Below the pieces are notes generated by a model. That model did no database searches and was not told the origin of the DNA. It saw only the letters and a list, made by a program, of their open reading frames with translations. A stretch of 19,667 bases of DNA from Candidatus Moraniibacteriota bacterium (GTDB lineage: Bacteria > Patescibacteriota > Minisyncoccia > Moranbacterales > UBA2206), in assembly GCA_003534085.1 (NCBI GenBank), contig DQBY01000124.1, forward strand, positions 1 through 19,667, written 5' to 3'. Positions 1-17,376 of this stretch are shown here, in pieces (position 1 is the first letter of the stretch; each line of letters opens with the position of its first letter). A program made the translations under genes and the position numbers.

Positions 1-4
1 TCTC

Positions 5-628
5 CTAAGAATTGGCAACTACTTTTTCCGCTTCTTTTCCGATTTCTTCTTTGGCCTTTTCCCAGTCAAAATCAACCAGCATCAACGGGCTCGGGTCGGC
101 ATCCGCATCGTCAAAATATGCCAGGCTCTTCAAAATATGCAATTTATTATATTGCACATTTTTGTATTTTTCTTCAAAAAATCCGATCAATTGAGGCAGG
201 GAATATTTTTTCATCAGAAAATAAATATCCGCAAAATCCTTCTTGCTTCCCCGCGCGGAAATCGTGTCGACTTTCATCCCGGCAATGTCGCGCTCGTCCG
301 CCAATCTCACGCCTTCATGTTCCAGATACGGAAAAAGCAACGCGTAATCATAACGGAAAAAACTTATCTTGACTCCGTCCAGCACTCCGGACAAAGTTCC
401 TTCATCCTCATAATCGACAGCCAGTTGTCCGATTTGAGCCAGTGATTCTTTAATTTTTTGCAAGGAAAAACCTTTTTTCGAAAAAAAATCCAAATCGATG
501 GACTCTCTGTGTCCCAATTGGAGCGCCAAGGCGGTTCCGCCGGCCAGATAAAAATCACTCGTCCAATCCGTTTTTTTTATCTTCTCCAGAACGGACTTTG
601 TTTTTTTGTCGATTGTTTTCGGATACAT
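5..628 (-). CDS. AbiEii/AbiGii-type nucleotidyltransferase, probable toxin
   Basis: This 207-aa protein has the nucleotidyltransferase signature of the AbiEii family near its N-terminus: Gly30-Gly31-Thr32 followed by a GHR..S.DLDFF block with the paired acidic residues Asp45 and Asp47. In known AbiE-type systems the AbiEii partner is a GTP-dependent nucleotidyltransferase toxin that can act on tRNA. Here that role is inferred from the family. The gene begins 52 nt inside the upstream DUF6922-like gene (577-870), so translation is probably coupled. No Shine-Dalgarno is visible before the ATG at 628, which fits coupling. It ends with TAG a few bases from the window edge, so the gene is complete. 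The fold is reasonably sure; the toxin role depends on the pairing. Confidence 0.82.
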   Translation of the reverse strand: MYPKTIDKKTKSVLEKIKKTDWTSDFYLAGGTALALQLGHRESIDLDFFSKKGFSLQKIKESLAQIGQLAVDYEDEGTLSGVLDGVKISFFRYDYALLFPYLEHEGVRLADERDIAGMKVDTISARGSKKDFADIYFLMKKYSLPQLIGFFEEKYKNVQYNKLHILKSLAYFDDADADPSPLMLVDFDWEKAKEEIGKEAEKVVANS

Positions 629-870
629 TTGGATTTATCAAGATTAAAATAAAAACACCAAAAATTATTTGATTTCAGATCGAATTTTTCGCTATTCTTC
701 GAAAAAACCTCAGCCACGAAATCTCGGCCGTACTGATCCACCGCCCACTTGAAATCCTCGATGTCGCCTCTCTCCAATATGCGCTTCACTATGAAGTCTC
801 CATGGCTCGCCGGATCAAGTTTGTCTCGGTCAATATCCCAAAAAAGATTAGGTTTTTTCAACGTTTCCAT
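577..870 (-). CDS. DUF6922-like small protein, likely AbiEii partner
   Basis: This 97-aa protein starts with a block (LFWDID, KLDPASHG, VKRILERGD) that resembles the DUF6922 family, often encoded just before an AbiEii-type nucleotidyltransferase. It is the first gene of a two-gene unit and overlaps the AbiEii start by 52 nt. I infer that it acts as the antitoxin or partner subunit, but no DNA-binding helix-turn-helix is obvious, so autoregulation cannot be claimed. The C-terminus is basic (KQSTKKQSPFWRR). A strong promoter (877-905) has its -10 box 6 nt before the ATG, so the message is predicted to be leaderless. Confidence 0.7.
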   Translation of the reverse strand: METLKKPNLFWDIDRDKLDPASHGDFIVKRILERGDIEDFKWAVDQYGRDFVAEVFSKNSEKFDLKSNNFWCFYFNLDKSKCIRKQSTKKQSPFWRR

Positions 871-876
871 AAGCTT

Positions 877-905
877 ATTATAGCATATAAAGAGCCAAAA
901 ATCAA
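877..905 (-). promoter_or_regulatory. sigma70-like promoter, leaderless, for 577-870
   Basis: On the minus strand TTGATT (900-905), a 17-nt spacer and a perfect TATAAT (877-882) are followed by 6 nt and the ATG at 870. A start site 7 nt past the -10 box falls on the A of the start codon, predicting a leaderless mRNA for the DUF6922/AbiEii pair. Confidence 0.75.
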
Positions 906-942
906 CCTTTTTGCCCGGATATGATTAATACAACTTCCAACC

Positions 943-961
943 AAAAAAGGCGTTTCCGCCT
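943..961 (-). terminator. intrinsic terminator after coiled-coil gene A
   Basis: Read on the minus strand, AGGCG-GAAA-CGCCT makes a short stem with a GNRA loop, followed by a run of six T. It lies just past the stop of the coiled-coil gene at 981. The same core and tail recur at 2341-2361. Confidence 0.5.
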
Positions 962-980
962 CTTGAAAAAACTAGACATC

Positions 981-1385
981 TTACGCCCGCGACAGTTTCT
1001 TTTCAATCATTTCAATTTTCTTTTCCAGCACAAACAATCTAGCCACATCGGCTTTTTCTTTCAATCGCGATTTAAGATCTTTTATTTCAGCTTTGACAGG
1101 AGCAACTTCTTTTTCAATCCGCAATAAATAATCAGAAGTTGATTTATAGCTATCCTTAATATCTCTTTTTAAGCCATCCAGCTTATCATTAGCGGAATAC
1201 AACCGCAAACTAAATCCGGTCACTTTATCCTCCACATTGCTCAATCTTACATCCATCTTGTCCATCGTATCTCTCAAACCGGAATGTTGTTCCAAAACCA
1301 AATCGATCTTTGAGTTCATTTTTTCCAAAAGTACATTCGTGTAATTTTCGGAATTATTTTTTGTTGTTGCTTTTTTCTTAGTCAT
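981..1385 (-). CDS. small coiled-coil protein, copy A of a three-member family
   Basis: The protein is about 134 aa with no signal peptide or membrane segment. A Lys-rich N-terminus is followed by a long charged helical region with hydrophobic residues at heptad spacing. It shares blocks with the proteins at 15260 and 16969: SSKL.LVLEQ.SG in the first third, and YL.RI..E, KAEIKDLK, KADV and a terminal EK..E.IEKKL block. An ATG five codons upstream lies within the -10 box, so I start at 1385, where a perfect promoter places the transcription start on the ATG. The function is unknown. Similar short coiled-coil families are common in Patescibacteria-like genomes, and oligomerisation is likely. 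It is a single-gene unit with its own promoter and terminator. Confidence 0.75.
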   Translation of the reverse strand: MTKKKATTKNNSENYTNVLLEKMNSKIDLVLEQHSGLRDTMDKMDVRLSNVEDKVTGFSLRLYSANDKLDGLKRDIKDSYKSTSDYLLRIEKEVAPVKAEIKDLKSRLKEKADVARLFVLEKKIEMIEKKLSRA

Positions 1386-1391
1386 AGGAAC

Positions 1392-1420
1392 ATTATACAT
1401 TCTTCAAAAAATAGTGTCAA
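1392..1420 (-). promoter_or_regulatory. perfect-consensus sigma70 promoter, leaderless
   Basis: TTGACA (1415-1420), a 17-nt spacer and TATAAT (1392-1397) are all consensus. Six nt separate the -10 box from the ATG at 1385, so the predicted mRNA begins at the start codon. Confidence 0.85.
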
Positions 1421-1467
1421 AAATAGGCGTAAAAAGGCCTTGCATCTTTCTCTCCGAATTTGAAAGA

Positions 1468-1878
1468 CTATATTTTTTCCACGATTGTCAGAAATTTTTC
1501 GATATCCGAGAGCCGGTTATGCAAAATGTCGTATACAATATCGTAGTTTATTTTTTCATAATCATGCGCGACCACATTGCGGAAACCGGTCATGGCTATC
1601 ATTTTCTTGGCCAATTCCAAATCAATGATCCCATCTTCTTCTAAAATATTAAACGACTCGCCCATCGTAGTCGGTTTGCGCAATTTCTTGAAAGATATCG
1701 TTGTTTCAGCCAGATCAATCGCTGATTGAACGGATAAATAGAGATAGCGCTCCACCATCCCTCTCACATCAACGTTGTCTTCTATCTCCGCTCGTGAATA
1801 TTTCTTGTAACGTTCAACGATTTTCAAATATTTCCTGGTCTGGCTTATTTTGTCTTCAATCAGATTAAAATTGGTCAT
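1468..1878 (-). CDS. hepT: HepT-like HEPN ribonuclease toxin (DUF86)
   Basis: This 136-aa helical protein carries the HEPN active-site signature RX4HXY: Arg100, His105 and Tyr107 (RNVVAHDY). In HepT/MntA systems this is an RNase toxin, and the tyrosine of the motif is AMPylated by MntA to silence it; both facts are family knowledge. It lies 13 nt downstream of the minimal nucleotidyltransferase gene at 1892-2284, the usual partner, and has no promoter of its own, so it is the second gene of a bicistronic operon. Length is typical. All three motif residues are intact, so the toxin appears competent. Confidence 0.87.
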   Translation of the reverse strand: MTNFNLIEDKISQTRKYLKIVERYKKYSRAEIEDNVDVRGMVERYLYLSVQSAIDLAETTISFKKLRKPTTMGESFNILEEDGIIDLELAKKMIAMTGFRNVVAHDYEKINYDIVYDILHNRLSDIEKFLTIVEKI

Positions 1879-1891
1879 TTTAATTGGATTA

Positions 1892-2284
1892 TTAAGCTCT
1901 GGTTAAATTATGCCTAAGAAGCATGGTGCGAAAATCAAAATATTCATTCATTATTTTCGGCTCAACTATCAACCTATAAGGTTCGCGATCAAGAATAATT
2001 CTGCCGTTTTTTATTACGGAAAATTTCAATTCCGGATTTTCGGCCCTGTCCAAAACAACAATGTCGATTTTATCCGTGCCCAGCAGCCGGCAGATTTCAT
2101 CCATCAGCGCGACCTTGATTTCAAATATTTTTATTGCGTCTCTTTCATCGAGGTAAACGGCAAAATCAAAATCGCTTAAAGGCCCGGTTTCTCCGGAAAC
2201 CCGGGAACCGAAAAGATACGCCAGCTTCACTTCCGGATGCGATTCGAATATATCCTTAAACTTCTGCATTGTTTCCTCGTTCAT
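1892..2284 (-). CDS. mntA: MntA-like minimal nucleotidyltransferase antitoxin
   Basis: This 130-aa protein has the MNT active-site pattern GSX10DXD: Gly26-Ser27, then Asp38 and Asp40 (FGSRVSGETG...SDFD). A further acidic strand, KIDIVVLD, follows. Family members AMPylate the tyrosine of the partner HEPN toxin and so act as enzymatic antitoxins. Here the HEPN gene follows directly, with 13 nt between them. The C-terminus extends past the usual core with an RTMLLRHNLTRA tail. A promoter with its -10 box 6 nt from the ATG predicts a leaderless operon mRNA. Confidence 0.87.
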   Translation of the reverse strand: MNEETMQKFKDIFESHPEVKLAYLFGSRVSGETGPLSDFDFAVYLDERDAIKIFEIKVALMDEICRLLGTDKIDIVVLDRAENPELKFSVIKNGRIILDREPYRLIVEPKIMNEYFDFRTMLLRHNLTRA

Positions 2285-2290
2285 AGTTAA

Positions 2291-2319
2291 ATATTACTAC
2301 AATTTCACCCAAAAAACAA
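2291..2319 (-). promoter_or_regulatory. sigma70-like promoter, leaderless, for mntA-hepT
   Basis: On the minus strand TTGTTT (2314-2319), a 17-nt spacer and TAATAT (2291-2296) are followed by 6 nt and the ATG at 2284. Both hexamers are weaker than those of the coiled-coil gene, but the geometry is identical. Confidence 0.55.
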
Positions 2320-2340
2320 GCCTCAATTGGCTGGTAAACC

Positions 2341-2361
2341 AAAAAGGCGTTTCCGCCTTTT
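2341..2361 (-). terminator. intrinsic terminator downstream of the aaRS/S66 operon
   Basis: On the minus strand AAAAGGCG-GAAA-CGCCTTTT is an 8-bp stem with a GNRA loop running into T residues. It closes transcription coming from the operon above 2481 or from the histidine-kinase tail remnant. The plus-strand sequence also has a T run after the stem, so it may work in both directions. Confidence 0.6.
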
Positions 2362-2362
2362 C

Positions 2363-2399
2363 CGATTCACGATATGCGATACGCGATTCACGATATGCG
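2363..2399. repeat. two 16-bp direct repeats
   Basis: The 16-mer cgattcacgatatgcg occurs at 2363-2378 and 2384-2399 with 5 nt (atacg) between. It fills the space between the terminator and the histidine-kinase tail remnant and codes for nothing visible. Confidence 0.7.
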
Positions 2400-2400
2400 T

Positions 2401-2481
2401 CTATCCCCACCTCTCTAACAACTCCTTCGTCTGTTGCACGGGTATTTCGATGATGAAGCGAGAACCCTTTCCTTCTTGTTT
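2401..2481 (-). pseudogene. orphan 3' end of a histidine kinase gene
   Basis: Twenty-six codons plus stop encode a peptide ending GSRFIIEIP, then QQTKELLERWG. This matches the last residues of the intact kinase at 7237-8991 almost residue for residue, while the DNA is about four-fifths identical over 80 nt. The homology starts directly at the stop codon of the AspRS-like gene (2481-2483), so the rest of this kinase copy has been lost or replaced. It is a remnant, not a functional gene. Confidence 0.85.
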
Positions 2482-3602
2482 TAAGGATATGATTTAATAT
2501 TCTTTAATCTAGGATATAAAATAGCATCCTTAATATCATCCCTACATAATGCCCAGGTAACAAATCTTTCAATTCCTAATCCAAATCCTGAGGTAATATT
2601 ATATCCAGGAAGATTTCTCAAATTTATGTACCAGTTATAGGGCTTCGCATCAATCTTTTGCCGATTTAACGAATCTAATAATTCTTCAGCCTTATTTTGC
2701 CTTTGACCGCACCCCACTATCTCACCGCCAAAAGCATTTTTTATTATTGGAGGAAAAATCATATCAGCATTGATTACCTTATTCGGATTTTGGGGATCCG
2801 GTTTTTGATAAAATGGAACTCTATCGCGATCATAATTCCTGATCCAAAAAGGCGATTTTATTTTCAAAGTTTCGGCTAATCTTATTTCTCCGTCCGCAGA
2901 TAAATCTCTACCGGAATTGGAAAAATTAATTAAATTTTTATTTTTACTCTTAATTAAAGTTTCTGCTGCCCGATCAAATGTGATTTCTGGAAATTTATTT
3001 ATTTTTAAAATTTTCTTCAAAACAAATTTACTTGCTTCGGGATCCAAACTGATCTTTTCCATGATATTTGGCATCAAAAGCAAGGCTTCCGCCAATACTT
3101 TTATATAACCTTCAATAATATTCATAATATCTTTAATTTCTCCTTTTATTTCAGCCTCACAATGAAAAAATTGATTGAGGTGACGTTTGTTAGGTTTTTC
3201 ACCACGCATTGAAGGCAGGTAACAATAAAACATCTTATTAGTTTCATTTAAAAGTAAAGGCTCAAATCCAAATTGAGATGAATCAACAAGATTTGTTTTA
3301 TGCTTACCGAATTTAATTGCAATTGATTCCGAATCAGATCCTGGACCCATTGGAGAAGATACACTTGTAGTTAGCATAAATAAATCAACATTTTTTGCAT
3401 TACATTTGACTCCAAAATAATAATCAGACACTGATTTAACATAATGTCTCAGAGTTATGAGGGCGCGAAAATATCCGCTTTTAGTTAGGTCTATATAATG
3501 TGTTTCCGGACCATATTTCGGTAATTTAAATTCCTTCGAATCTGCACTCCGAAACTCAAGATCATCATTTTTAATTTGTTTTCTCAAATAGGCAGGCAGC
3601 AT
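2481..3602 (-). CDS. AspRS/AsnRS-like class II synthetase core without anticodon domain
   Basis: The 373-aa protein has class II aminoacyl-tRNA synthetase motifs of the Asp/Asn subgroup. Motif 2 is in SMRGEK...KRHLNQF...CEAE (Arg133, Glu135, His141). Motif 3 is SGFGLGIERF followed by an ILYPR ending (Arg346). No N-terminal OB-fold anticodon-binding domain is evident: the protein goes almost directly into the catalytic core. Related stand-alone cores are known that make asparagine from aspartate, as in archaeal AS-AR, and others activate amino acids for conjugation. So this probably adenylates an Asp/Asn-like carboxylate without charging tRNA, which is inference. It is the last gene of a five-gene operon, 5 nt after the S66 peptidase gene. 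A divergent true AsnRS cannot be excluded. Confidence 0.75.
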   Translation of the reverse strand: MLPAYLRKQIKNDDLEFRSADSKEFKLPKYGPETHYIDLTKSGYFRALITLRHYVKSVSDYYFGVKCNAKNVDLFMLTTSVSSPMGPGSDSESIAIKFGKHKTNLVDSSQFGFEPLLLNETNKMFYCYLPSMRGEKPNKRHLNQFFHCEAEIKGEIKDIMNIIEGYIKVLAEALLLMPNIMEKISLDPEASKFVLKKILKINKFPEITFDRAAETLIKSKNKNLINFSNSGRDLSADGEIRLAETLKIKSPFWIRNYDRDRVPFYQKPDPQNPNKVINADMIFPPIIKNAFGGEIVGCGQRQNKAEELLDSLNRQKIDAKPYNWYINLRNLPGYNITSGFGLGIERFVTWALCRDDIKDAILYPRLKNIKSYP

Positions 3603-3607
3603 ACATT

Positions 3608-4609
3608 TTAATGTTCAATTATTTTAATTTTAGCTTCATCACCAATTACAGAAATTTGCACAATACCCCCTATTGGAATTGTTGCAAGAGGAGTAGTGTG
3701 TCCAAAATCAACGTTAGCAATTATCGGAATATTTTTTAATTCTTTTTTTCCTTTTATGATCTTATGTAATAATTCCTTTCTCATTTGTGTGTCCTTTTGA
3801 AAACGTCCGATCAAAATACCTTTGACACCATTAAAGTCATTCTGATGAATTAGAGATTGCAATTCCCTGTCAAAATGATGTGGCATTGATTCACTATCAT
3901 CCTCTAACAATAAAATGGAATCTTCCATGCTTTGCATAAAATCAGTTCCGCAGAGCAACTTAAATGTGCAAAGATTTCCTCCAATTGTTCGTCCCAAAGC
4001 ATTACCGGGATTTAATATCCAATATCCATCGTTTGGAATAAATTCGCGCTTATCCTGATCCAGATACCACGGATCATCACTCCATTCTTTGGAAGTCAAT
4101 AATTCAAAACTCTCATCTTTCATGCAACATTTTTCAAAACCTTCCAGAGAATATTCAAATCCTTTCTGCATGGCCCAACTTGAAAAATGTGGGCCCATAT
4201 ATGTTATTAAACCTGTTTTTGAAGTGATTGCATTACCCAATGCTGTTACATCAGAAAAACCGCAAATAATTTTGGGATTTTTTTTGATTAATTCATAATC
4301 AATATATTTAAGTAATTGATTAGAATTATATCCTCCAATTACAGTAAGAATTGCATCTACATCCTTATCTAAAAAAGCATCGTGCAAATCTCTTATTCGT
4401 GAATCTATTGAAGAGGAGTTAAATTCATCCATCTCTGACACATGCCTGCCAAAAGACAGTTTAAAGCCATACTCTTCCAACTTCCTAATCGCGAGGCTTT
4501 TCGTGTCTTCTGATAATAAACCCAAACTACGCACGGGCGCTATTATCCTAATATGCGCTCCCTTCTTTATTTTTTTTGGCTTAATCGTCTTTTTTATTAA
4601 TATGCTCAT
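3608..4609 (-). CDS. S66 family serine peptidase, MccF-like
   Basis: The 333-aa protein is a complete S66 peptidase (LD-carboxypeptidase/MccF superfamily). Visible landmarks are VIGGYNSNQLL, the nucleophile Ser119 in CGFSDVTAL, the catalytic Glu236 in LLLEDD and His304 in FGHTTPLATIPIG, a Ser-Glu-His triad spaced much as in MccF. The GPHFSSW segment and the Trp-rich loop WSDDPWYLDQD fit the MccF branch better than muropeptide LD-carboxypeptidases. MccF cleaves the amide between an amino acid and a nucleotide in processed microcin C and so gives self-immunity. There is no signal peptide, so it should act in the cytoplasm, whereas a muropeptide-recycling role looks less likely among these neighbours. 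It lies between two synthetase-like genes, about 50 nt after one and 5 nt before the other. Confidence 0.85.
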   Translation of the reverse strand: MSILIKKTIKPKKIKKGAHIRIIAPVRSLGLLSEDTKSLAIRKLEEYGFKLSFGRHVSEMDEFNSSSIDSRIRDLHDAFLDKDVDAILTVIGGYNSNQLLKYIDYELIKKNPKIICGFSDVTALGNAITSKTGLITYMGPHFSSWAMQKGFEYSLEGFEKCCMKDESFELLTSKEWSDDPWYLDQDKREFIPNDGYWILNPGNALGRTIGGNLCTFKLLCGTDFMQSMEDSILLLEDDSESMPHHFDRELQSLIHQNDFNGVKGILIGRFQKDTQMRKELLHKIIKGKKELKNIPIIANVDFGHTTPLATIPIGGIVQISVIGDEAKIKIIEH

Positions 4610-4659
4610 ATAATTAATTTTAAGAATTTAGGATTTCATCTTTTATTTCTTTTGAAGCA

Positions 4660-5718
4660 TCATGTCTCATATGTTTTGATAATTTCTATAATAAGGCCAG
4701 ATAACCGATCTTCTGAATCAGGGAATTCTCTTTTTTCAAAACCAGTGATTATTTCACTCAATTTTTCGAAATCTATTCCAGATTTCATTTTAAAATACGC
4801 CAATGCTTTCAAATACTGCTTTAAAATTCTATTTCTATTATGTTTTCCGAATGGTCTCAGACCCTCATTAAACAAAACTACACTTGTTATTATAGCATCT
4901 TCAAACTTTCTTCTTAAATTATTATCAATATTTTCTAAACCAATTACGGGCGAACAATCTAGCACGTGATCCAATCCATATAATTCTTTAAGAATAGTAC
5001 TTGACCCTAGGGCTAGCTCCACTCCTAAAATTTTTTTATTATTGCTAAGGAGGATAATATTTCCAACATCCGCAAAGCCTTTTCCGTCCGAATTCCGTAA
5101 AGCAATATTAAAACTCCTGCCTGAAATTCCCTCTACACCTATTTTATGTTTATAATATTCCTCTTTCTCCTTGTCAAATTCCAAATTTTCATCATTCAGA
5201 TTCTCCCTACAAGCTTCAACAAGATCATCATCAGAAGAATTAATACGAATTAATATATTTTCAGGGGAGATATTAAGCTGTTTCTTAAAAAAATTAAAGG
5301 TATCAACACATGTTTCCTTAAGTCTTTCCGCGGGAGCTATAGCCCCCAAACTTGTAAAATATGAACCCCAACCAAGAGCGAAGCTGTCTTCCAATAATTT
5401 ATCTGCATTTCTCGTTCTTAAACAATTTTGCCGCATAAAAATTCCCGGATTAGGAATTCTTTCCTGAATCAAATATGGCTTAAACACACTAATATGAGAA
5501 CCAATAAATCTGACGCTGGAATCGATTCCGGAAGTTATCAAAACCGGCGTCTCTTCATGATAACCCAAGGAGAAAAAATGCTCTTTAAAGCCAGCAAGCA
5601 GAGCATCTAAATGCTCCTTGGCTTTTTCAGGAGGAAACTTTTCATTCCCATAAATATTTTTTTTAAATTTTTCTTCTTCCATCTCTGATCCGGGATATTT
5701 TTCAAAAAATTCAGGCAT
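4660..5718 (-). CDS. alanyl-tRNA synthetase-like catalytic core, divergent
   Basis: About 352 aa from the ATG at 5718; an upstream TTG at 5727 is less likely. Order and spacing follow the AlaRS core. QNCLRTRNADK matches the AlaRS 'Q-C-LR-ND' segment, LGWGSYFTSLG the 'LGNFSFGDYF' region, NSSDDDLVEAC the 'DDDEA' segment, and ELALGSS..LKELYG the motif 3 'TGMGLERL' region. NEGLRPFGKHNRNRILK matches the helix 'DGV-PSN-GRGYVLRR'. The editing and C-Ala domains are absent. The motif 3 arginine is not present in the expected place, so chemistry may be altered or lost. The ATG overlaps the stop of the methyltransferase gene by 8 nt, so translation is coupled. It is the third gene of the operon. The assignment comes from pattern matching of weak similarity and should be held at moderate confidence. 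Confidence 0.6.
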   Translation of the reverse strand: MPEFFEKYPGSEMEEEKFKKNIYGNEKFPPEKAKEHLDALLAGFKEHFFSLGYHEETPVLITSGIDSSVRFIGSHISVFKPYLIQERIPNPGIFMRQNCLRTRNADKLLEDSFALGWGSYFTSLGAIAPAERLKETCVDTFNFFKKQLNISPENILIRINSSDDDLVEACRENLNDENLEFDKEKEEYYKHKIGVEGISGRSFNIALRNSDGKGFADVGNIILLSNNKKILGVELALGSSTILKELYGLDHVLDCSPVIGLENIDNNLRRKFEDAIITSVVLFNEGLRPFGKHNRNRILKQYLKALAYFKMKSGIDFEKLSEIITGFEKREFPDSEDRLSGLIIEIIKTYET

Positions 5719-6493
5719 ATGGTTCAAATTTACAGGTAATTAATATTAAAAATTTATTTTTATTAAAAATATTTGCAACAAATTTCCCGATCGTTTTTAA
5801 AATAAATCTAGGAGTTTCCATTAATAAGGGATTCCCAAAATAATTAATTTCTAGATAAGATATTTTTCTTCCATATTCTTTGCTTATTTTTTCAAGTATT
5901 TTTTTTATTTCTTGAGGATCATGAAATTTTTCCGTATCAATTTTATAACCAGGCATAAACTTAATTTTTTTAAGAAATCGAGCTTTTAATATGGGCCCTG
6001 AATGAAAGTTAGGCATACCTAATGCTACAATGCCAGACTCAGAAGATACCCGGATCATCTCTCTTAATATCAATTCTATATCTTTTAAATCATAATGTTC
6101 AATTACGCCGATATTCCATACTAGATCAAAGCTATTATTCTCAATTGGCATTTCGAAAATATTTCCCTTTATGAAAATTGGATTTTCAACACCAAATTTA
6201 ATCGCTAGAAAATTTGCAAATTTTAAAGCGATTGGAGAAATGTCTAAAAAATTTTTCTTTAACGAAGGATCCAATAAAATCGTTGCTTTGCCCGAACCAC
6301 TTCCTGCCTCTAGGACGGTGCTGAGGCTATTTTTCCTAACAAGATTGTTGATATAATTAGATAATTCTTTATAATAATCTTCCCACCAAAAAGAAGAAAA
6401 CTTTTTATAATTATTGTTTTCCAATTCATCTTTGAATACCTTGCTCCAATGCGCATTTTCATGCTCAATAATTTTAGACAGATCATTTTCCAT
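5711..6493 (-). CDS. class I SAM-dependent methyltransferase
   Basis: This 260-aa protein has motif I as VLEAGSGSGKAT (residues 60-71), an acidic strand-2 end at NFLDIS, and the post-motif DLVWNIGVIEHY (123-134), which is typical of small-molecule methyltransferases of the Methyltransf_11 type. The C-terminal third (KFMPGYKID, FLILITCKFEP) is probably substrate-binding. The substrate cannot be read from the sequence. Its place in the operon suggests it modifies the compound handled by the two synthetase-like proteins. The start overlaps the end of the HD gene by 11 nt and the TGA stop overlaps the next ATG, so expression is tightly coupled. Confidence 0.85.
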   Translation of the reverse strand: MENDLSKIIEHENAHWSKVFKDELENNNYKKFSSFWWEDYYKELSNYINNLVRKNSLSTVLEAGSGSGKATILLDPSLKKNFLDISPIALKFANFLAIKFGVENPIFIKGNIFEMPIENNSFDLVWNIGVIEHYDLKDIELILREMIRVSSESGIVALGMPNFHSGPILKARFLKKIKFMPGYKIDTEKFHDPQEIKKILEKISKEYGRKISYLEINYFGNPLLMETPRFILKTIGKFVANIFNKNKFLILITCKFEPYA

Positions 6494-7133
6494 ATGTTTC
6501 AGATAATTCTGATTGTAATTCTTTTAAAAATAATCTTAAAAAATCCATCCTTTTTTCCGACATCTTTTTTGCACTCTTGGTGTGCAATCTTTTCTGAATA
6601 ACCATCAATCTTGTAAGAAATAAATCTAAAGCATATCTGCTGTCGTCCGGTTTCCGTCTTGAACAGAATGGATCATTATAATTATAAAAACTTTTTTTCA
6701 TTAGGCCAGCTGAAGAAAATGTTCGCATTACAGATATAGCACCCATAGCTTCTAGGCCATCAGCATCCTGCAAAATCATAGCCTCAATAAATCCTGGGCT
6801 TAAATTCTTAGAAAAAGAACAATATCTTATGCATTCACATACTTTTTCAATTTTTTCTTTTGGAAATAATTTAATTTTTTTTAGAACCTTTTTAGTAAAA
6901 ATAGCACTCTCTTCTTGGCTATGTAATCTTTTAAGATGATTTTTTGGATAATTTACAATATCATGAAAAAGGGCAGCTGGCACAATAATATCCATATCGG
7001 CTTTTTCAACTTTTGCAATTTTTTCAGATAAAGCAAGCACTCTTAAAGCATGCTCAATATCATGCGAGGGGTCTGATCCGGAAATATTTTTTTTTGCAAT
7101 TCCAATCAATCGATTTTTTGTTATTTTGTCCAT
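6483..7133 (-). CDS. HD-domain phosphohydrolase
   Basis: The 216-aa protein has the full metal-binding set of an HD hydrolase: His24-Asp25 and His28 in SHDIEHALRV, His57-Asp58 in ALFHDIVN, and Asp123/Asp125 in LQDADGLEAMGA. This arrangement resembles the YpgQ/YedJ-like group, of which some members hydrolyse nucleoside triphosphates to monophosphate and pyrophosphate. It is the first gene of the operon, read from a leaderless-type promoter at 7140-7168. A role in making, activating or clearing a nucleotide intermediate would fit the operon, but that is inference. Confidence 0.85.
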   Translation of the reverse strand: MDKITKNRLIGIAKKNISGSDPSHDIEHALRVLALSEKIAKVEKADMDIIVPAALFHDIVNYPKNHLKRLHSQEESAIFTKKVLKKIKLFPKEKIEKVCECIRYCSFSKNLSPGFIEAMILQDADGLEAMGAISVMRTFSSAGLMKKSFYNYNDPFCSRRKPDDSRYALDLFLTRLMVIQKRLHTKSAKKMSEKRMDFLRLFLKELQSELSETYGK

Positions 7134-7139
7134 ATTTCA

Positions 7140-7168
7140 ATTTTAAACTCTCGCTTACTTTATTGCAA
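7140..7168 (-). promoter_or_regulatory. sigma70-like promoter for the five-gene operon, leaderless
   Basis: On the minus strand TTGCAA (7163-7168), a 17-nt spacer and TAAAAT (7140-7145) precede the HD gene ATG by exactly 6 nt. No other good promoter is seen inside the operon down to 2481. Confidence 0.65.
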
Positions 7169-7190
7169 ATATACAGTTTTTTGACAAAAC

Positions 7191-7219
7191 AAAAATCCCG
7201 AACCATTGCTGGGATTTTT
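7191..7219. terminator. bidirectional intrinsic terminator
   Basis: A 9-bp perfect stem, aaaaatccc (7191-7199) with gggattttt (7211-7219), encloses an 11-nt loop. T runs exist in both readings. On the minus strand it ends the histidine-kinase operon and insulates the promoter of the HD/methyltransferase operon. Confidence 0.8.
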
Positions 7220-7236
7220 ATTAAAAATCATGTTCC

Positions 7237-8991
7237 CTATCCCCACCTCTCCAACAATTCCTTCGTCTGTTGGATCGGGATTTCGATGATGAATCTCGAA
7301 CCCTTTCCTTCTCCGTCCGATTCCGCCCAGATCTTTCCGCCGTTGTTTTCAACCATGGAGCGTCCGACATAGAGGCCAAGTCCGGTTCCGCCGGTGTTCA
7401 GGCGGGAAGTGTCTTTGCCTCGGGAGAATTTAGCGAAAAGATACGGCAGTTCGGTCTGCGGTACGCCGATTCCGGTGTCGGCGACGGTAATCCTGATAAC
7501 ATCTTGTCCGCCAAGGTTTGATTTTTGATCATTTGGATTTTGGGATTTGTTTGGAATTTGGAATTTGGAATTTGGAATTTGCTCGAGGCGAAGTGTAACG
7601 CCGCCTTTCGGAGTATATTTCAAAGCGTTGTCCACCATGTTGGAAATGACTTCCCTCACTTTCGTGCCGTCAATCATCACCTCAGGCAAAGGAGTTTCCG
7701 ATTTCTTATATTCCAGATACAAACCGTTGGCCTTGGCTTTCGGAATGAAAGTATCCATCACGTCCGCGCAGATCTTTTCCACGCTCCATGGCGCGAACTT
7801 GAATTCCATCCTGCCCGATTCCATCCTGGAAACGTTCAAAAGGTCTTCCACCAGATTCACGAGCCTTTCATTGGAAGTGTACACCTTGTTCAAAACATCC
7901 TGCTGCTTCGGATCGACTTTTCCGTATGAACCTTCCAAAAGCATCGAGATGAATCCCTTGATCGCGGTCAATGGAGTCCTCAACTGATGCGAAGCGATGG
8001 AGATGAATTCCGATTTGGCATTATCCAATTTCCGGAGCTGATCATTCGCCTCCGCCAGCTTGTCGCTCATCCCCTGCAGCTGTTCCTTCCTTTCCTCGCT
8101 GACTTTCACCGCCCTCACCAACGCCCAGCCGGCCCCGATCGTCAAAAACAACGTCACCGCAGTCAAGATTATAGCCGTCGTAGTCTCAACAAAGAAAAAC
8201 ATCGAGCCTACAAGGATAATCAACGCCGCCACCAATGCCTGCGCCGCAAGCATCTTAATATTGAAGGCTTTGAATTTGACGATGAGATAGGCAAGGAATG
8301 CCATGAAAACGGCCATACTTAGAACTCCCCAAAATTCTAATTCATAGTTTTCGGTTATGCTTGATGTAAAAAGAGCAATAAAAAGGGATAACAAAAAGAA
8401 TTCAATTCCAAATACAAAAAGAATTAATTGTTTTTTAAAAGAATTTTCGACTTTTCTGTATTTTAAAATTGCCATTATTAATACCCAAAAAAATATAACG
8501 ACGCAAATTGAAAAAAAATATAAAATAAAATAATAACCCTCAGTTGCCTCACAATCATTAATGATGCTGAAATTTGTTAGATTTTTATTAGTGGGAGTAA
8601 AAAATATCGCTGGAAGTAATAATAATAGAAAAAATGTTTTTACAGACACGCCAACATCACCTTTATTTATAAAAACATATGTTAAATACAGACTTAATAT
8701 AAAAATTAATTCAATTAAAAGACCAGAAAAAGACCAGAAAAACATTATACTTGTACTATTCGAACTTGTCCATAAAATAAGATTAAAAATCACCCAAATT
8801 GAAAATGCCATAGACAAGGACAACAAAATTTTACTTACAAGTGCCTTTTTGTTTTTTAAAAAAACAAAAAGGCTTACTATTAGCGAAACTGTCGCGGCAG
8901 GAATATGAGAATAATAAATCAAGTCTAGTGGATAAGAATCTCTTACCAAGGTGAAACAATATTCAATATTATTAACTAAATTAAAAGACAT
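7237..8991 (-). CDS. membrane histidine kinase with multi-span N-terminal sensor
   Basis: The 584-aa protein begins with roughly eight or nine hydrophobic segments (about residues 25-295) resembling the 7TM-type histidine kinase sensor. A short coiled linker (SEERKEQ..LAEANDQLRKLD) follows. The HisKA domain has phospho-acceptor His335 in SHQLRTPLTAIKG. The HATPase domain has the N box SNMVDNALKYTP, G1 ADTGIGVP, the F box LFAKFSR and G2 GGTGLGLYVG. All catalytic boxes are intact. A repeat-encoded stretch (IPNSKFQIPNK, NPNDQK) is inserted between the N and G1 boxes. No response regulator gene is in the window. The start overlaps the SET gene by 11 nt, so it is the last gene of a three-gene operon. 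The 3' half is much richer in GC than the 5' half. Confidence 0.92.
   Translation of the reverse strand: MSFNLVNNIEYCFTLVRDSYPLDLIYYSHIPAATVSLIVSLFVFLKNKKALVSKILLSLSMAFSIWVIFNLILWTSSNSTSIMFFWSFSGLLIELIFILSLYLTYVFINKGDVGVSVKTFFLLLLLPAIFFTPTNKNLTNFSIINDCEATEGYYFILYFFSICVVIFFWVLIMAILKYRKVENSFKKQLILFVFGIEFFLLSLFIALFTSSITENYELEFWGVLSMAVFMAFLAYLIVKFKAFNIKMLAAQALVAALIILVGSMFFFVETTTAIILTAVTLFLTIGAGWALVRAVKVSEERKEQLQGMSDKLAEANDQLRKLDNAKSEFISIASHQLRTPLTAIKGFISMLLEGSYGKVDPKQQDVLNKVYTSNERLVNLVEDLLNVSRMESGRMEFKFAPWSVEKICADVMDTFIPKAKANGLYLEYKKSETPLPEVMIDGTKVREVISNMVDNALKYTPKGGVTLRLEQIPNSKFQIPNKSQNPNDQKSNLGGQDVIRITVADTGIGVPQTELPYLFAKFSRGKDTSRLNTGGTGLGLYVGRSMVENNGGKIWAESDGEGKGSRFIIEIPIQQTKELLERWG
7553..7580. 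repeat. four tandem copies of a 7-bp unit inside the kinase gene
   Basis: The unit ggaattt is repeated four times without error, with degenerate copies continuing to about 7530. Because 7 is not a multiple of 3, three units make a 7-residue protein period (IPNSKFQ). The array sits in frame between the N and G1 boxes of the ATPase domain. Confidence 0.85.
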
Positions 8992-9586
8992 ACTTTTTTA
9001 TGTTATTTTTATTTATTAATCCAAGTTTTTTTAGCGCATCAATCTCATACCTGGGAAGTTTGAAGTGGTTTTTATCATATTTTTTTGATTTCAACAAAAT
9101 TTTCATATAATCTTGCAACGCACCCATTTTCACATACATAGTTAAAGTTTTTTTTGGAATAGTCAATATATGACTTATCTTTTTTCTGCATATATTAGAA
9201 CCACACTTGCATCTCATTTCCCAAATTGTCGGCGCAATGACGGTCGAATAATCATAAGTTATTTCCTCTCCCTTTTCTATGTTCCTCAGAGCAAATAATT
9301 CACTCGTCTTCCTCACACCAGCATTTGGACTGCAACTATGATTAAAAGTGTTTGAAATTCTATCCATATCCAGATAGGTTCGCCTGCCAATCTGAAGAGA
9401 ATCATTCATAGCCTCTTTTCCATATTTAACTCTATTTGCCCATTCAGTTACATCCATCTTCTCGCCACTTAAAACCCATATTTTATTCCCTTTATTTATG
9501 TTTTCAAGGGCAAATATGCCATTCCCATATTTAAGAGTCTCCTTTAATTTCAATTTGGAATTGGTCCAAGAAAAAATATCTTTCAT
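8981..9586 (-). CDS. SET-domain protein lysine methyltransferase with post-SET zinc site
   Basis: This 201-aa protein has a near-complete small SET domain: the N-terminal YGNGIFAL strand, FNHSCSPN (Asn82-His83-Ser84-Cys85), RNIEKGEEITYDYS with Tyr111 and Tyr113, and a post-SET segment RCKCGSNIC (Cys126, Cys128, Cys133; CXCX4C). In eukaryotic SET enzymes Cys85 plus these three cysteines bind zinc near the active site, so this copy looks catalytically competent. It should methylate a lysine on a protein; the target is unknown. The ATG overlaps the stop of the upstream unknown gene (ATGA), and its own end overlaps the kinase start, so the three are one operon. Confidence 0.88.
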   Translation of the reverse strand: MKDIFSWTNSKLKLKETLKYGNGIFALENINKGNKIWVLSGEKMDVTEWANRVKYGKEAMNDSLQIGRRTYLDMDRISNTFNHSCSPNAGVRKTSELFALRNIEKGEEITYDYSTVIAPTIWEMRCKCGSNICRKKISHILTIPKKTLTMYVKMGALQDYMKILLKSKKYDKNHFKLPRYEIDALKKLGLINKNNIKKYVF

Positions 9587-10419
9587 TTATCTAAATCAAT
9601 TTTATTAATTAAATCATCTGGATAATATTGCCAAAATATATCTCCATCAACTTTATAGCTAACCAGTGGGACAATCAATGGCCTTAGGCCGAAAATCTCC
9701 TGTATCCTATCAAATGCCGGCTTAACGACATCAAAAGTAAACTTCTTTTCATCCTTGTTTGATCCCACAAAATAATTTTCAAAAAGTACCCCATTACAGA
9801 TAAAAAGAGCAAACACTTTTAAGTAAACATCATAAGCACTCTCCCCGTTAGTCTTAAACTCAGAGACATCGAATGTGTCTATTTTTTTATATTTTTCATT
9901 GAAAATTCGATGATGAAATTTAATAAAGTCTTCGCCCCAAACAGTTTTAATTTTTTTGAAATACTCGCCATCGCATTTCTCTAAATCAATTATCTTTTTT
10001 CTATCGTTAATACAAGCATCTTCTCCATTTTTTTGATGAAAGAATATCATTTTACCTAAATGCAATTTATCCTGATTGCGAGTACAAAATTTGTCATTCA
10101 AAAATTCCATAAAAATAAAATTGAGATCTAAAAGTCTCGCTGTATCACTGGCAATTTGGAATTCCAAATTAGGAGTTGTCATAAACCTGAACAATGCGGC
10201 TCGTGGTTCTTTTTTAAAAACTTCAGGTAGCTCCCCTCCCAAAAAATCCTCCACCTTTTTCCGCAGCACTTTGTCATTCCAGCGGCGCCAGATTTCTTTT
10301 TTTGCGACTGATAGCGGGGTATAGATATCTTTAATATCAAATTCCTCGTTTTCAGACTGTTTGGAAATATCTACTTTTTCAACTTTTTTATCCTTCCCGA
10401 CTTCATTCTTCTTATTCAT
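9583..10419 (-). CDS. hypothetical protein, 278 aa, first gene of SET/kinase operon
   Basis: I do not recognise a characterised family. The protein has a charged, probably disordered N-terminus (about 25 residues), then a conserved-looking block IYTPLSVAKKEIWRRWND and a mixed alpha/beta remainder rich in Lys, Asp and Phe. There is no signal peptide or membrane segment. The block is conserved in a second, broken copy at 15744-15853, so this is a multi-copy family in the genome. Its stop codon overlaps the SET gene start (ATGA), so the two proteins are likely made together. It is a candidate substrate or partner of the SET enzyme, purely from position. Confidence 0.78.
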   Translation of the reverse strand: MNKKNEVGKDKKVEKVDISKQSENEEFDIKDIYTPLSVAKKEIWRRWNDKVLRKKVEDFLGGELPEVFKKEPRAALFRFMTTPNLEFQIASDTARLLDLNFIFMEFLNDKFCTRNQDKLHLGKMIFFHQKNGEDACINDRKKIIDLEKCDGEYFKKIKTVWGEDFIKFHHRIFNEKYKKIDTFDVSEFKTNGESAYDVYLKVFALFICNGVLFENYFVGSNKDEKKFTFDVVKPAFDRIQEIFGLRPLIVPLVSYKVDGDIFWQYYPDDLINKIDLDK

Positions 10420-10469
10420 AAATCTTTGAATTTAACGATAACCAAGAATTACTACAATTCCCTACCTTT

Positions 10470-10498
10470 ATTATGCTACTAAAAAGGATTTTTGACAA
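10470..10498 (-). promoter_or_regulatory. sigma70-like promoter for the 278-aa/SET/kinase operon
   Basis: On the minus strand TTGTCA (10493-10498), a 17-nt spacer and CATAAT (10470-10475) are present. The predicted start lies about 44 nt before the ATG at 10419, so this transcript would have a short leader, without a clear Shine-Dalgarno. Confidence 0.5.
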
Positions 10499-10533
10499 GA
10501 AAAATGCCGAGATCTGAAAAACCAAATCTCGGC
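10497..10533 (-). terminator. intrinsic terminator after the ArgA-like gene
   Basis: An 8-bp stem, gccgagat (10506-10513) with atctcggc (10526-10533), is followed on the minus strand by a T-rich tail (ATTTTTC). It lies about 25 nt past the end of the ArgA-like gene. Its tail borders the -35 box of the next operon. Confidence 0.75.
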
Positions 10534-15259: not shown

Positions 15260-15688
15260 TTATTCCTTGACGAGCTTCGCGAAGACCAATCTTTCCAGTT
15301 TCAACAGCCTTTTTTCAAAACCATTTATTTTTTCCAGATCAGCTTTTCCTTTAAAAATTTTCCTTAAGTCTTTTAGCTCGGTTTTTAAATCCTGAATTTC
15401 CTCATCAATTCGAAAAAGATATTCCAAAGCTATTTTTAGGTTTTTATCAGTCCGATCCACAAACCTAAAAACCTCCTTGAAGTTTTCGTCAGTCTGCTTT
15501 CTGAAACTAATCATCTCACCCCGAAATTCAACCATTTCGCCTTTAAACCCCAAAAATTCTTTATGATTATCTCTGATTTCCTTGCGAATGCCCGAGAACT
15601 GCTCCAACACTAAAGCCAACTTGGAGCTTATATCCTCCAGGACAACTGTTTGCTGATCCTTTTTTATTTTACCGGTTTTTCCTACCAT
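15260..15688 (-). CDS. small coiled-coil protein, copy B
   Basis: 142 aa. A Lys-rich N-terminus (GKTGKIKKDQQ) is followed by LEDISSKLALVLEQFSGI, then a run of 7-residue repeats (FKGEMVE, FRGEMIS) and the C-terminal block YLFRIDEEIQDLKTELKDL..KGKADLEK. It is a long, highly charged helix, probably an oligomerising coiled coil with no catalytic motif. It is closely related to copy C (16969-17376), differing by exactly one extra heptad in the middle, and more distantly to copy A (981-1385). It is a single gene with its own promoter, 6 nt from -10 to ATG. Function unknown. Confidence 0.82.
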   Translation of the reverse strand: MVGKTGKIKKDQQTVVLEDISSKLALVLEQFSGIRKEIRDNHKEFLGFKGEMVEFRGEMISFRKQTDENFKEVFRFVDRTDKNLKIALEYLFRIDEEIQDLKTELKDLRKIFKGKADLEKINGFEKRLLKLERLVFAKLVKE

Positions 15689-15856: not shown

Positions 15857-16156
15857 TTATTTTCTTATTCTCTCTCGCGAATCCAGGTATCTTTTTAATG
15901 CATCAATGGATGACAGCCAATTGCGCCCTTCCTTGTGCGCTTCCAGTTTGCCGTTACGCGCCAAAAGATTCAGATATTTTTCCGTAAATTTTGTACTTTT
16001 GGCCAATTCTGCCAATGGAACAAATTTTTCTTTACCCTTTTTGCTTGGCATCAATATTTTCAAATAAATATCCAGTGTTCTTTCCACCGCCCGTGCGATG
16101 AAATTTATAAATGACACATAATTACCTTTGTCCGCCAAAGTATCTTTTCCGATCAT
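15857..16156 (-). CDS. C-terminal part of the Fic protein, split off by a frameshift
   Basis: This 99-aa frame continues the Fic protein after a frame change. ADKGNYVSFINFIARAVERTLDIYL is the usual last helical part of a class II Fic domain. The next segment, PLAELAKSTKF..KYLNLLARNGKLEAHKEGRNW, looks like a winged helix or excisionase-type DNA-binding domain. It overlaps the upstream frame by 35 nt and has an ATG at 16156, so a separate product is conceivable but has no Shine-Dalgarno. Most likely it is the distal half of a broken gene. Confidence 0.7.
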   Translation of the reverse strand: MIGKDTLADKGNYVSFINFIARAVERTLDIYLKILMPSKKGKEKFVPLAELAKSTKFTEKYLNLLARNGKLEAHKEGRNWLSSIDALKRYLDSRERIRK

Positions 16157-16787
16157 TTTTCAAAACAATTACCAATGGAAAACCGGATTGCATCAAAATT
16201 ATATTCATAGCCAGCCGCGAAGTCCTGCCATTGCCATCAAAAAATGGATGAATATAAACAAGTTTGTGATGCAAAACACTCGCCAATTCGACCGGATGCG
16301 TTTTTTTCTTATTATCCCCAACCCATTTGATAAGCTTCTGCATGAGTTTTGGAATTTCCATCGCTTCCGGAGGCTTATGATCGGCGCCACCGATAATCAC
16401 CGCGCTGTTTCGATATTTACCCGCCCAATCCCTATCGATATCCTGCATCACAATCTGGTTTAGCGACCGAATAAATCTTTCGGACACTGTGTTATTTTTA
16501 CCTCTTTCCACCAGTGAATATAAATAATCCAGCGCCTCCTTGTGACTCTTGGCTTCAACATGATCTTTGAGCGGCTTACCCTTGATAGTCAGCCCTTCGT
16601 TGATAACCAAATAGGTTTCTTTAAGCGTCAAACTATTACCTTCAATCGCATTGGAGTTATATGTCATTTCTATCTCAAACTGCTCCCTGAGTTTTTTAAC
16701 CGCGGACGATGACAGCGGACGGAAAGAGTTGAGCAATTTCAATTTCTCATCAATTCTTTTTTGAATTTTTTTGTCTAAACAATGCAT
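16122..16787 (-). CDS. Fic-domain AMP-transferase, C-terminus frameshifted
   Basis: 221 aa. The Fic core motif is intact: His180 in HPFFDGNGRTSR. An inhibitory motif (S/T)XXXE(G/N) sits near the N-terminus as Ser45-Asn-Ala-Ile-Glu49-Gly50, making it a class II (self-inhibited) Fic protein. Such enzymes transfer AMP to hydroxyl groups of target proteins. After KNDRKRYF the frame runs into a stop (GGQR), where relatives continue with Y..L..ADKG. That continuation is present in another frame at 15857-16156. A small deletion around 16135-16145 would explain it. The gene has a clear promoter, a leader and AAGGA before the ATG at 16787, unlike its leaderless neighbours. Confidence 0.85.
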   Translation of the reverse strand: MHCLDKKIQKRIDEKLKLLNSFRPLSSSAVKKLREQFEIEMTYNSNAIEGNSLTLKETYLVINEGLTIKGKPLKDHVEAKSHKEALDYLYSLVERGKNNTVSERFIRSLNQIVMQDIDRDWAGKYRNSAVIIGGADHKPPEAMEIPKLMQKLIKWVGDNKKKTHPVELASVLHHKLVYIHPFFDGNGRTSRLAMNIILMQSGFPLVIVLKNDRKRYFGGQR

Positions 16788-16968: not shown

Positions 16969-17376
16969 TTATTCCTTGACGAGCTTCGCAAAGACCAATC
17001 TTTCCAGTTTCAACAGCCTTTTTTCAAAATCATTTAATTTTTCCAGATCAGCTTTTCCTTTAAAAATTTTCCTTAAGTCTTTTAGCTCGGTTTTCAAATC
17101 CTGAATTTCCTCATCAATGCGAAAAAGATATTCCAAGGCTATTTTTAGATTTTTATCCGTCTTGTCTCTAAAATCATACATCTCATTTCTAAACTTGATC
17201 ATTTCGCCTCTGAATTCGATCATATCCCCTTTAAATTCCAAAAATTCTTTATGATTATTGTCTATTTTTTTATTGACGCCTGAAAACTGCTCCAATACCA
17301 AAGACAATTTGGAGCTTATATCTCCCAAAACAACCGTTTGCCGATCAGATTTTATTTTGCCTTTTTTCTTTTCCAT
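16969..17376 (-). CDS. small coiled-coil protein, copy C
   Basis: 135 aa with a basic start (EKKKGKIKSDRQ), LGDISSKLSLVLEQFSGV, heptad repeats (FKGDMIE, FRGEMIK) and the C-terminal block YLFRIDEEIQDLKTELKDL..KGKADLEK, nearly identical to copy B in the last 70 residues. The central repeat region has one heptad fewer than copy B. Function unknown; a structural or adaptor role by oligomerisation is plausible. Single-gene unit with its own leaderless-type promoter. Confidence 0.82.
   Translation of the reverse strand: MEKKKGKIKSDRQTVVLGDISSKLSLVLEQFSGVNKKIDNNHKEFLEFKGDMIEFRGEMIKFRNEMYDFRDKTDKNLKIALEYLFRIDEEIQDLKTELKDLRKIFKGKADLEKLNDFEKRLLKLERLVFAKLVKE

Follow-up and report, generated by a model that had tools for sequence, protein, structure and literature searches.

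Why should a single operon combine two catalytic cores resembling aminoacyl-tRNA synthetases with a peptidase, a methyltransferase and a phosphohydrolase? We addressed this question using a contig of a Candidatus Moraniibacteriota bacterium (DQBY01000124.1, assembly GCA_003534085.1), of which the whole 19,667-nucleotide stretch analysed is referred to as the window. A preliminary description had reported five closely spaced genes and read them as a pathway for a small aminoacyl or amide conjugate.

Layout of the cassette and its genomic setting

The five genes are real, tightly packed and conserved, and span positions 2481-7133 on the minus strand, between two copies of a direct repeat:

2401..2476, no strand assigned: left copy of a 76-nt direct repeat, a remnant of the 3′ end of a histidine kinase gene
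2481..3602, minus strand: AsnRS-type catalytic core without an anticodon-binding domain (373 aa; AgnA homolog)
3608..4609, minus strand: S66 peptidase of the MccF type (333 aa; from PDB matches, catalytic triad and Trp loop)
4660..5718, minus strand: AlaRS-type catalytic core with a rebuilt active site (352 aa; from residue states)
5711..6493, minus strand: class I SAM methyltransferase (260 aa; Pfam Methyltransf_31, 2e-14)
6483..7133, minus strand: HD-domain phosphohydrolase, the first gene of the cassette (216 aa; Pfam HD, 3e-14)
7237..7312, no strand assigned: right copy of the 76-nt direct repeat, the 3′ end of the intact histidine kinase gene at 7237-8991

The repeat copies are 88% identical with a spacing of 4836 nucleotides, and a search of the whole assembly with the left copy matched these two places only, which rules out a genome-wide repeat. 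Shorter matches near the histidine kinase end belong to a different repeat, within the kinase gene. The flanking repeat and the low G+C content of the cassette are consistent with an agrocin/microcin C-like cassette that has probably been moved horizontally, although low G+C is not confined to the cassette (0.25-0.34 at 8401-10500). Searches led us to reject a tRNA or a known RNA element as the frame of the cassette, and also a PADLOC defence system, the methyltransferase matching mad2 (8.5e-15) over its methyltransferase part.

The source genome has separate translational enzymes, and we reject the idea, which would have spoken against the preliminary description, that the two cores are its own AsnRS or AlaRS. 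A non-discriminating AspRS is encoded by a separate gene on contig C2 (542 bits, cut-off 353), C29 carries an AlaRS that starts off in another frame (564 bits, cut-off 529), and LysRS is present in pieces on C25 and C43.

Active sites of the two synthetase-like cores

One core had been assigned from the sequence to the Asp/Asn type of class II synthetases, lacking a tRNA-binding domain, and both points hold. Among 120 listed homologs, motif 2 retains its Arg in all 120 and its Glu in 119, each of the Gly, Glu and Arg of motif 3 is invariant (120/120), and the pocket position is always Glu (120/120), as in the four AsnRS alignments compared; AspRS has Lys at this position. The best structural match begins at residue 107 of AsnRS 1x54. 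Some lower-ranked matches begin near residue 38, but the stretch ahead of the core is only about 30 residues long. A protein of 373 aa cannot accommodate an OB domain as well, and the OB-fold anticodon-binding domain that AsnRS carries at its N-terminus is absent. Judging from this residue census the Asn-type core should adenylate, and we predict it to be an adenylating amide ligase.

In a tree, the Asn-type core grouped with AgnA, two Streptomyces proteins and one Pantoea protein (a fusion represented by its last 340 residues) apart from two outgroups (100/100), namely the AspRS of the source genome without its first 100 residues and a protein of locus L021 that is AspRS-like by eye. AgnA, a homolog at 31% over 97% (2e-38), takes part in the biosynthesis of agrocin 84 and has been described as a truncated relative of AsnRS (PMC4392301). 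None of 63 pattern matches to the Asn-type core in viral contigs was confirmed, and eight unannotated phage records matching the Asn-type core of locus L071 at 27-32% identity were taken for ordinary AsnRS.

The second core, previously described as Ala-type, indeed has the AlaRS fold, and the protein stops before the AlaRS editing domain; its active site has been rebuilt. The motif-2 Arg is kept in 149/149 listed homologs, so the loss of ATP-binding residues is partial, but the motif-3 Arg is found in 0/149, compared to 14/14 AlaRS controls. A Trp is replaced by His, the AlaRS Asp236 position is Glu in every listed homolog (149/149), and the Asn303 position is Asn in 2/149, a less certain count since the alignment is gapped there. 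Lys244, present in 147 of the 149, might substitute for the lost motif-3 Arg.

These changes recall AcmF of the ascamycin pathway, which is reported to be a truncated AlaRS-like enzyme transferring tRNA-bound alanine to a nucleoside antibiotic, that depends on Glu232 (Asp to Glu relative to AlaRS), that carries a second change from Asn to Gln (Gln219), and that lacks the pair reading G3:U70 (PMC12945691). Equating residues through these published changes and the AlaRS alignment rather than through the AcmF sequence, both proteins are AlaRS-derived cores without an editing domain in which ATP-site residues are lost, the position binding the amino group has gone from Asp to Glu, and the Asn that reads G3:U70 has disappeared. 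The Ala-type core differs in keeping Asn at the position of Gln219 (149/149 listed homologs). We predict it to be an aminoacyl transferase of the AcmF kind; from its residue states, it should need no ATP for the transfer of amino acids.

The Ala-type family is rare: it was detected in 5/379 genomes of the phylum at 1e-20 and 3/383 of the class at 1e-15 (own genome included in both), in none of nine genomes sampled from the family to which the window belongs, and, in the order of genome G080, in 1/6 genomes, this being G080 itself. Plasmids and phages gave no match at 1e-3, and none of 51 pattern matches in viral contigs was confirmed. Six of nine further matches were judged from the match table to be ordinary AlaRS, because their E-values were near 1e-16 and the matches were partial, N-terminal and in long frames.

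Partner enzymes and recurrence of the gene set

The S66 protein carries the Ser-Glu-His triad and the Trp loop in which the preliminary description had seen a resemblance to MccF. It matches PDB entries 4h1h (7.7e-112) and 4e5s (1.4e-107), MccF itself (3tla, 2.2e-35) and, less strongly, LdcA types (about 1e-18), and aligns nearly end to end with the MccF-like proteins of solved structure BA_5613 and Lmo1638 (1e-107 to 1e-112). The window gene is embedded in a cassette; the organisms from which the closest MccF-like structures come are not known to be producers. A housekeeping LdcA is ruled out by these scores, by 97.3 of the 378 bits required by the curated LdcA model, and by the search for a second S66, which found none in the 76% complete assembly. 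The proposed separation of MccF from LdcA was borne out by the scores and not by the tree (18 rows, eight trimmed to the matched stretch, one an open piece of L016), whose long branches do not separate the two at depth. We predict an immunity or processing hydrolase.

The methyltransferase belongs to a subfamily, MT1, shared with L002 (2.9e-115), L016 (7.3e-50), L071 (1e-56) and the Bradyrhizobium loci L023/L024 (8.9e-65). Its match to the pAgK84 enzyme is 0.0094. The methyltransferase adjoining agnA falls in another subfamily with those of L021 (2e-40), L069, L070, L022 and L018. The HD protein has a homolog in L002 (1.8e-91) and scores 167 bits against NCBIfam PRK10119, below the cut-off of 286; L071 and Bradyrhizobium (L023) have a HAD hydrolase, and other loci other enzymes.

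The partners travel with the cores. All nine Ala-type loci read have a methyltransferase adjacent, fused or one gene away, and 8/9 have an S66 or, in one case (L021), an S51 peptidase in its place; an S51 peptidase is also present in L069. The S51 family includes MccG, which cleaves processed microcin C and whose stand-alone homologs protect cells from this compound (PMC9239234). The Asn-type core occurs with a methyltransferase and an S66 in the absence of an Ala-type core in two patescibacterial clusters, in pAgK84 and in plasmids of Bradyrhizobium. Each core can thus occur without the other: the Ala-type core is missing from the stretches of Bradyrhizobium, pAgK84, L069 and L070, and the Asn-type core from those of L015, L017 and L018. 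As a proxy for linkage, contig sizes were compared between matches to the two cores, using 118 and 119 of the 120 rows listed for each (177 and 946 matches in total); 34 sizes were shared, one being that of the window's own contig, whereas controls shared 1.1 on average. The set is nevertheless patchy, the Ala-type core being absent from the nine family genomes sampled. The S66 and methyltransferase frames of L016 are broken, and no S66 was seen in the plasmid stretches L026, L027 and L028, whose Asn-type cores are more distant; the Asn-type core matched 63 plasmid records, seven of which were read. In L021 a KamA-family aminomutase lies between the cores. In soybean strains of Bradyrhizobium a homologous operon (S66, Asn-type core, HAD, methyltransferase) resides on conjugative plasmids, where the copies adjoin nodU; a literature search for a bradyoxetin link gave nothing, and one for 'SrmL' gave, among the matches listed, unrelated uses of the letters.

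The agrocin 84 plasmid pAgK84 encodes an S66 homologous to that of the window (28%, 2e-21) and has no detectable Ala-type core (best profile match 4.7). Its LeuRS, radical SAM, dioxygenase, NUDIX and ABC transporter genes lack counterparts among the five window genes; the ten window proteins scanned include neither a leucyl synthetase such as its immunity LeuRS (AgnB2) nor a ThiF protein such as MccB of microcin C clusters, with which the window shares the MccF-type S66. With pAgK84 homologs of the Asn-type core, the S66 and several of the methyltransferase relatives, aminoacyl-nucleotide chemistry is more strongly implicated than in the preliminary description. Overall, its observation was confirmed in part and its interpretation gained partial support; of the three outcomes it had set against itself (cores serving as the only AsnRS and AlaRS, genes dispersed in related genomes, an S66 firmly among the LD-carboxypeptidases), none was found.

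A candidate pathway and its competitors

With somewhat better than even confidence, we read the cassette as biosynthesis plus immunity for an aminoacyl-nucleotide-like amide, related to agrocin 84 and similar to microcin C and ascamycin, with microcin C amide chemistry as the working model. The Asn-type core would use ATP to activate asparagine, or a closely similar amino acid, and attach it through an amine or phosphoramide to a small acceptor. This acceptor, in all likelihood a modified nucleotide, would be tailored by the methyltransferase and HD phosphohydrolase. The Ala-type core, its ATP site damaged, would add a second aminoacyl group taken ready-activated, by analogy with AcmF most likely from aminoacyl-tRNA, and the S66 peptidase would cut the carboxamide inside the cell, so protecting the maker. 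In favour are the intact Asn-type motifs and Glu pocket, the grouping with AgnA, the AcmF-like Ala-type residues, the MccF-type S66 and its S51 replacement, the constancy of the methyltransferase and hydrolase partners, the L021 match to the agnA-adjoining methyltransferase, and the linkage proxy for the cores. On the other side, domain and profile scans of the five proteins revealed no exporter, no ThiF enzyme and no tailoring oxidase; also against the reading are the occurrence of the cores apart, the rarity of the Ala-type family, the weak window-to-agrocin methyltransferase match, the Asn kept where AcmF has Gln, the broken L016 frames and the S66-free plasmid stretches. While gene content, folds predicted from sequence, residue states and recurrence are observations, the substrates, the presence of a nucleotide, the order of the steps, the immunity role and the direction (synthesis and not breakdown) are inferred; the product may be an antibiotic, signal or cofactor.

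It is improbable, though the strongest competitor, that the conjugate is non-toxic (a modified cofactor, sugar-nucleotide or signal) and the S66 a turnover or processing enzyme. The same scans of the five proteins found no target-resistant synthetase either, the L021 S51 protein has further matches, short of the cut-offs, to models of cyanophycinase and PepE, metabolic genes (amidohydrolase, HAD, APH, dCTP deaminase) occur among the neighbours in related loci, and the Bradyrhizobium plasmid copies adjoin nodU. However, a patchy distribution fits a toxin better than a core cofactor, as does the exchange of two hydrolase families that the microcin C literature ties to immunity. Less likely again is a resistance island with all five enzymes directed at foreign aminoacyl-nucleotide antibiotics, which the S66 would cleave while the methyltransferase and core-like proteins would modify or bind them: protection by stand-alone MccG homologs, the closest S66 structures coming from organisms not known as producers, and the missing motif-3 Arg would suit this, but a binding decoy would not need the adenylation motifs that the Asn-type core conserves, and AgnA, the closest characterised relative, belongs to a biosynthetic operon. 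The Asn-type core shares its fold and motifs with AsnRS and archaeal asparagine synthetase A, yet falls far below both curated cut-offs (147 of 414 and 135 of 389 bits); a role in amino-acid metabolism, with this core as a stand-alone asparagine synthetase A and the Ala-type core as a HisZ-like regulator, is very unlikely. Least likely are paralogs that modify tRNA or protein with the S66 and HD as passengers, for although EpmA, a core lacking an anticodon domain, can aminoacylate a protein and the L021 aminomutase recalls its partner EpmB, the curated-model scan of the Asn-type core gave no EpmA match and weak LysRS matches (1.6e-4), and S66 and methyltransferase accompany the Asn-type core in Bradyrhizobium too.

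The agrocin 84-related reading can be extended, tentatively, to Patescibacteria at large, which may carry modular cassettes for small-molecule assembly. Retired class II cores (Asn, Ala, Thr, Lys, Phe types) would serve there as interchangeable ligases or transferases, combined with a methyltransferase and S66/S51 immunity and independent of NRPS or ThiF. The window version would build a two-amino-acid nucleotide conjugate, one residue added by the Asn core at the expense of ATP and the other by the Ala core, which would draw on tRNA and do without ATP. Episymbiotic bacteria would use compounds like this as weapons or to act on their hosts, and agrocin 84 would have been put together from this ancestral type. 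Our literature search, which covered few subscription papers, recognised no description of this gene set in patescibacteria; graspetide clusters have been reported there, with no synthetase or S66 mentioned in the accessible text (PMC8939145).

Since relatives of the set recur in other ultra-small bacteria and beside the genes for one known antibiotic, a so far undescribed small molecule tagged with an amino acid is probably made, or handled, by the cassette. The residue census yields a precise and testable claim for each core, and the homologous Bradyrhizobium operon offers a culturable test case. To our knowledge, few systems with synthetase-targeting or signalling conjugate chemistry have been characterised (agrocin 84, ascamycin and microcin C). 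If our reading is true, reduced-genome bacteria thought to live on other bacteria would carry cheap five-gene pathways for conjugates of this synthetase-targeting or signalling kind.

The cassette and its S66 peptidase

The window is the entire contig C9 of a 792-kb assembly in 126 contigs (completeness 76%). On its minus strand, 2481-7133 holds five ORFs that overlap or almost abut, which bears out the close packing reported in the preliminary description; the single promoter proposed there for all five was not supported, as promoter-like sites are no commoner than in shuffled sequence. By a Pfam and NCBIfam scan covering ten window proteins, the five products are an AsnRS-class core (Asn-type core), an S66 peptidase, a protein matching AlaRS below threshold (Ala-type core), a SAM methyltransferase and an HD protein.

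The S66 protein, the sole one found in the 76% complete assembly, carries the expected MccF-like triad and Trp loop (Ser-Glu-His and W-S-D-D). Its PDB matches favour the proposed MccF-like assignment over LdcA: MccF-like Lmo1638 and BA_5613 score 1e-107 to 1e-112 and MccF itself 2e-35, versus ~1e-18 for LdcA types. In the S66 tree it forms one clade (support 100/99) with the Bradyrhizobium protein and those of the related loci L015, L016 and L071; the deep forks that would separate MccF from LdcA are weakly supported (45/85).

Distribution and gene content of related loci

Counting the window's own genome, the Ala-type core was found in 5 of 379 genomes sampled phylum-wide at 1e-20 and in 3 of 383 class genomes at 1e-15; none of nine sampled genomes of the window's own family had it. 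In the order of genome G353, nine of 246 genomes gave matches, three of them judged true. The Asn-type core was present in 4/379 genomes phylum-wide at 1e-60. As a linkage proxy for the two cores, 34 longest-contig sizes were common to both protein lists, whereas 2000 jittered controls had 1.1 in common on average and never more than 5 (all among the matches listed).

We read nine Ala-type loci: the window, L002, L015-L018, L021, L022 and L071. L017 and L018 belong to one genus; L002, from Zambryskibacteria, has a contig that stops within the Ala-type core gene. A methyltransferase is neighbouring, fused (L015) or one gene off in all nine. Seven have an S66 gene and L021 an S51 gene, the remaining locus being the cut L002. 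The claim that the gene set stays together holds for the methyltransferase and the peptidase (S66 or S51, 8/9); the Asn-type core occurs at five of the nine loci (window, L016, L021, L022, L071) and HD at the window and L002.

Variable partners at the Ala-type loci
window, L002: HD
L071: HAD
L015: APH-like kinase, ThrRS-like core, aminotransferase
L018: two dCTP-deaminase-like proteins (same ORFs in L017, by eye)
L021: radical SAM protein of the 2,3-aminomutase family
L022: glycosyltransferase
L002: PheRS-like protein, ATP-grasp maturase

Under genetic codes 11 and 25 alike, neither the S66 gene nor the methyltransferase gene of L016 gives an unbroken frame.

An Asn-type core with methyltransferase and S66, and no Ala-type core in the stretch, occurs at L070, at L069, on Bradyrhizobium plasmids (S66 - Asn-type core - HAD - methyltransferase, adjoining nodU) and on the agrocin 84 plasmid pAgK84, where the S66 gene lies away from agnA. 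L070 is a second cluster in genome G337, separate from L015 (Ala-type plus ThrRS-like core); each of the two also combines an APH-like kinase with S66 and a methyltransferase. The L069 core is accompanied by an AdoMet decarboxylase, a NodU-like carbamoyltransferase, a LysRS-like protein, a PheS-related protein and an S51 peptidase. Decarboxylated SAM is reminiscent of the aminopropyl group of microcin C. The large L069 gene group (1-10376) also has a CN hydrolase, with S66 and S51 both present. Its PheS-related protein scores 401 bits with the SrmL model (cut-off 300), and its C-terminal part resembles the L018 product of 8725-9513, adjoining the Ala-type core (34%, 116 residues). No S66 was found on the plasmid stretches L026-L028, which carry more distant Asn-type cores beside P450, NRPS or GNAT/MFS genes.

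Repeats at histidine kinase genes

The cassette is flanked by a 76-nt direct repeat (2401-2476 and 7237-7312, 88% identity). The adjacent histidine kinase gene (7237-8991) has the right copy as its 3′ end; no further copies were found in the assembly. At L002, a 227-nt repeat of a kinase 3′ end (3439-3665 and 6342-6568, 84%) encloses the PheRS-like and ATP-grasp genes and stops 22 bases ahead of the HD gene. Duplicated 7TM histidine kinase 3′ ends bracket cargo genes in two different patescibacteria, which suggests that cargo was inserted at kinase 3′ ends. G+C is 0.28-0.35 across 2801-7000 versus 0.43-0.47 in the kinase 3′ half; it is also low outside the cassette (0.25-0.34 at 8401-10500), and the kinase gene is itself a mosaic, its 5′ part being ~0.25. 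A short repeat within it (~7517-7583) is open in frame by eye, and pieces recur on ten other assembly contigs.

Other window genes were also noted:
8981-9586: SET-domain protein (Pfam 1.6e-14), adjoining the kinase
9583-10419: protein with no Pfam match; homolog at L002 1220-2047, upstream of the related kinase
5-628: AbiEii-like protein (PADLOC 1.8e-7)
1468-1878: small protein, HEPN-like by eye; no PADLOC match
1892-2284: nucleotidyltransferase (PADLOC 4.7e-9), adjoining the HEPN-like protein
16122-16787: Fic-like protein (PADLOC 1.4e-31)
981-1400, 15260-15688, 16969-17376: three alike small coiled-coil-like proteins, the last two with almost identical C-termini (by eye)

Relation to known systems

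AgnA is described as a truncated AsnRS homolog of the agrocin 84 operon (PMC4392301). pAgK84 likewise encodes an S66 protein, and the methyltransferase adjoining agnA is homologous to that of L021 (2e-40). For microcin C products, PMC9239234 describes carboxamide hydrolysis by MccF and MccG; this pair is paralleled by S66 at most loci, S51 at L021 and both at L069. The cassette is a member of none of the agrocin 84, microcin C and ascamycin systems, because one defining feature of each was sought and was absent. It works, in part each, like the enzymology of all three, and from its enzymes we infer its product.
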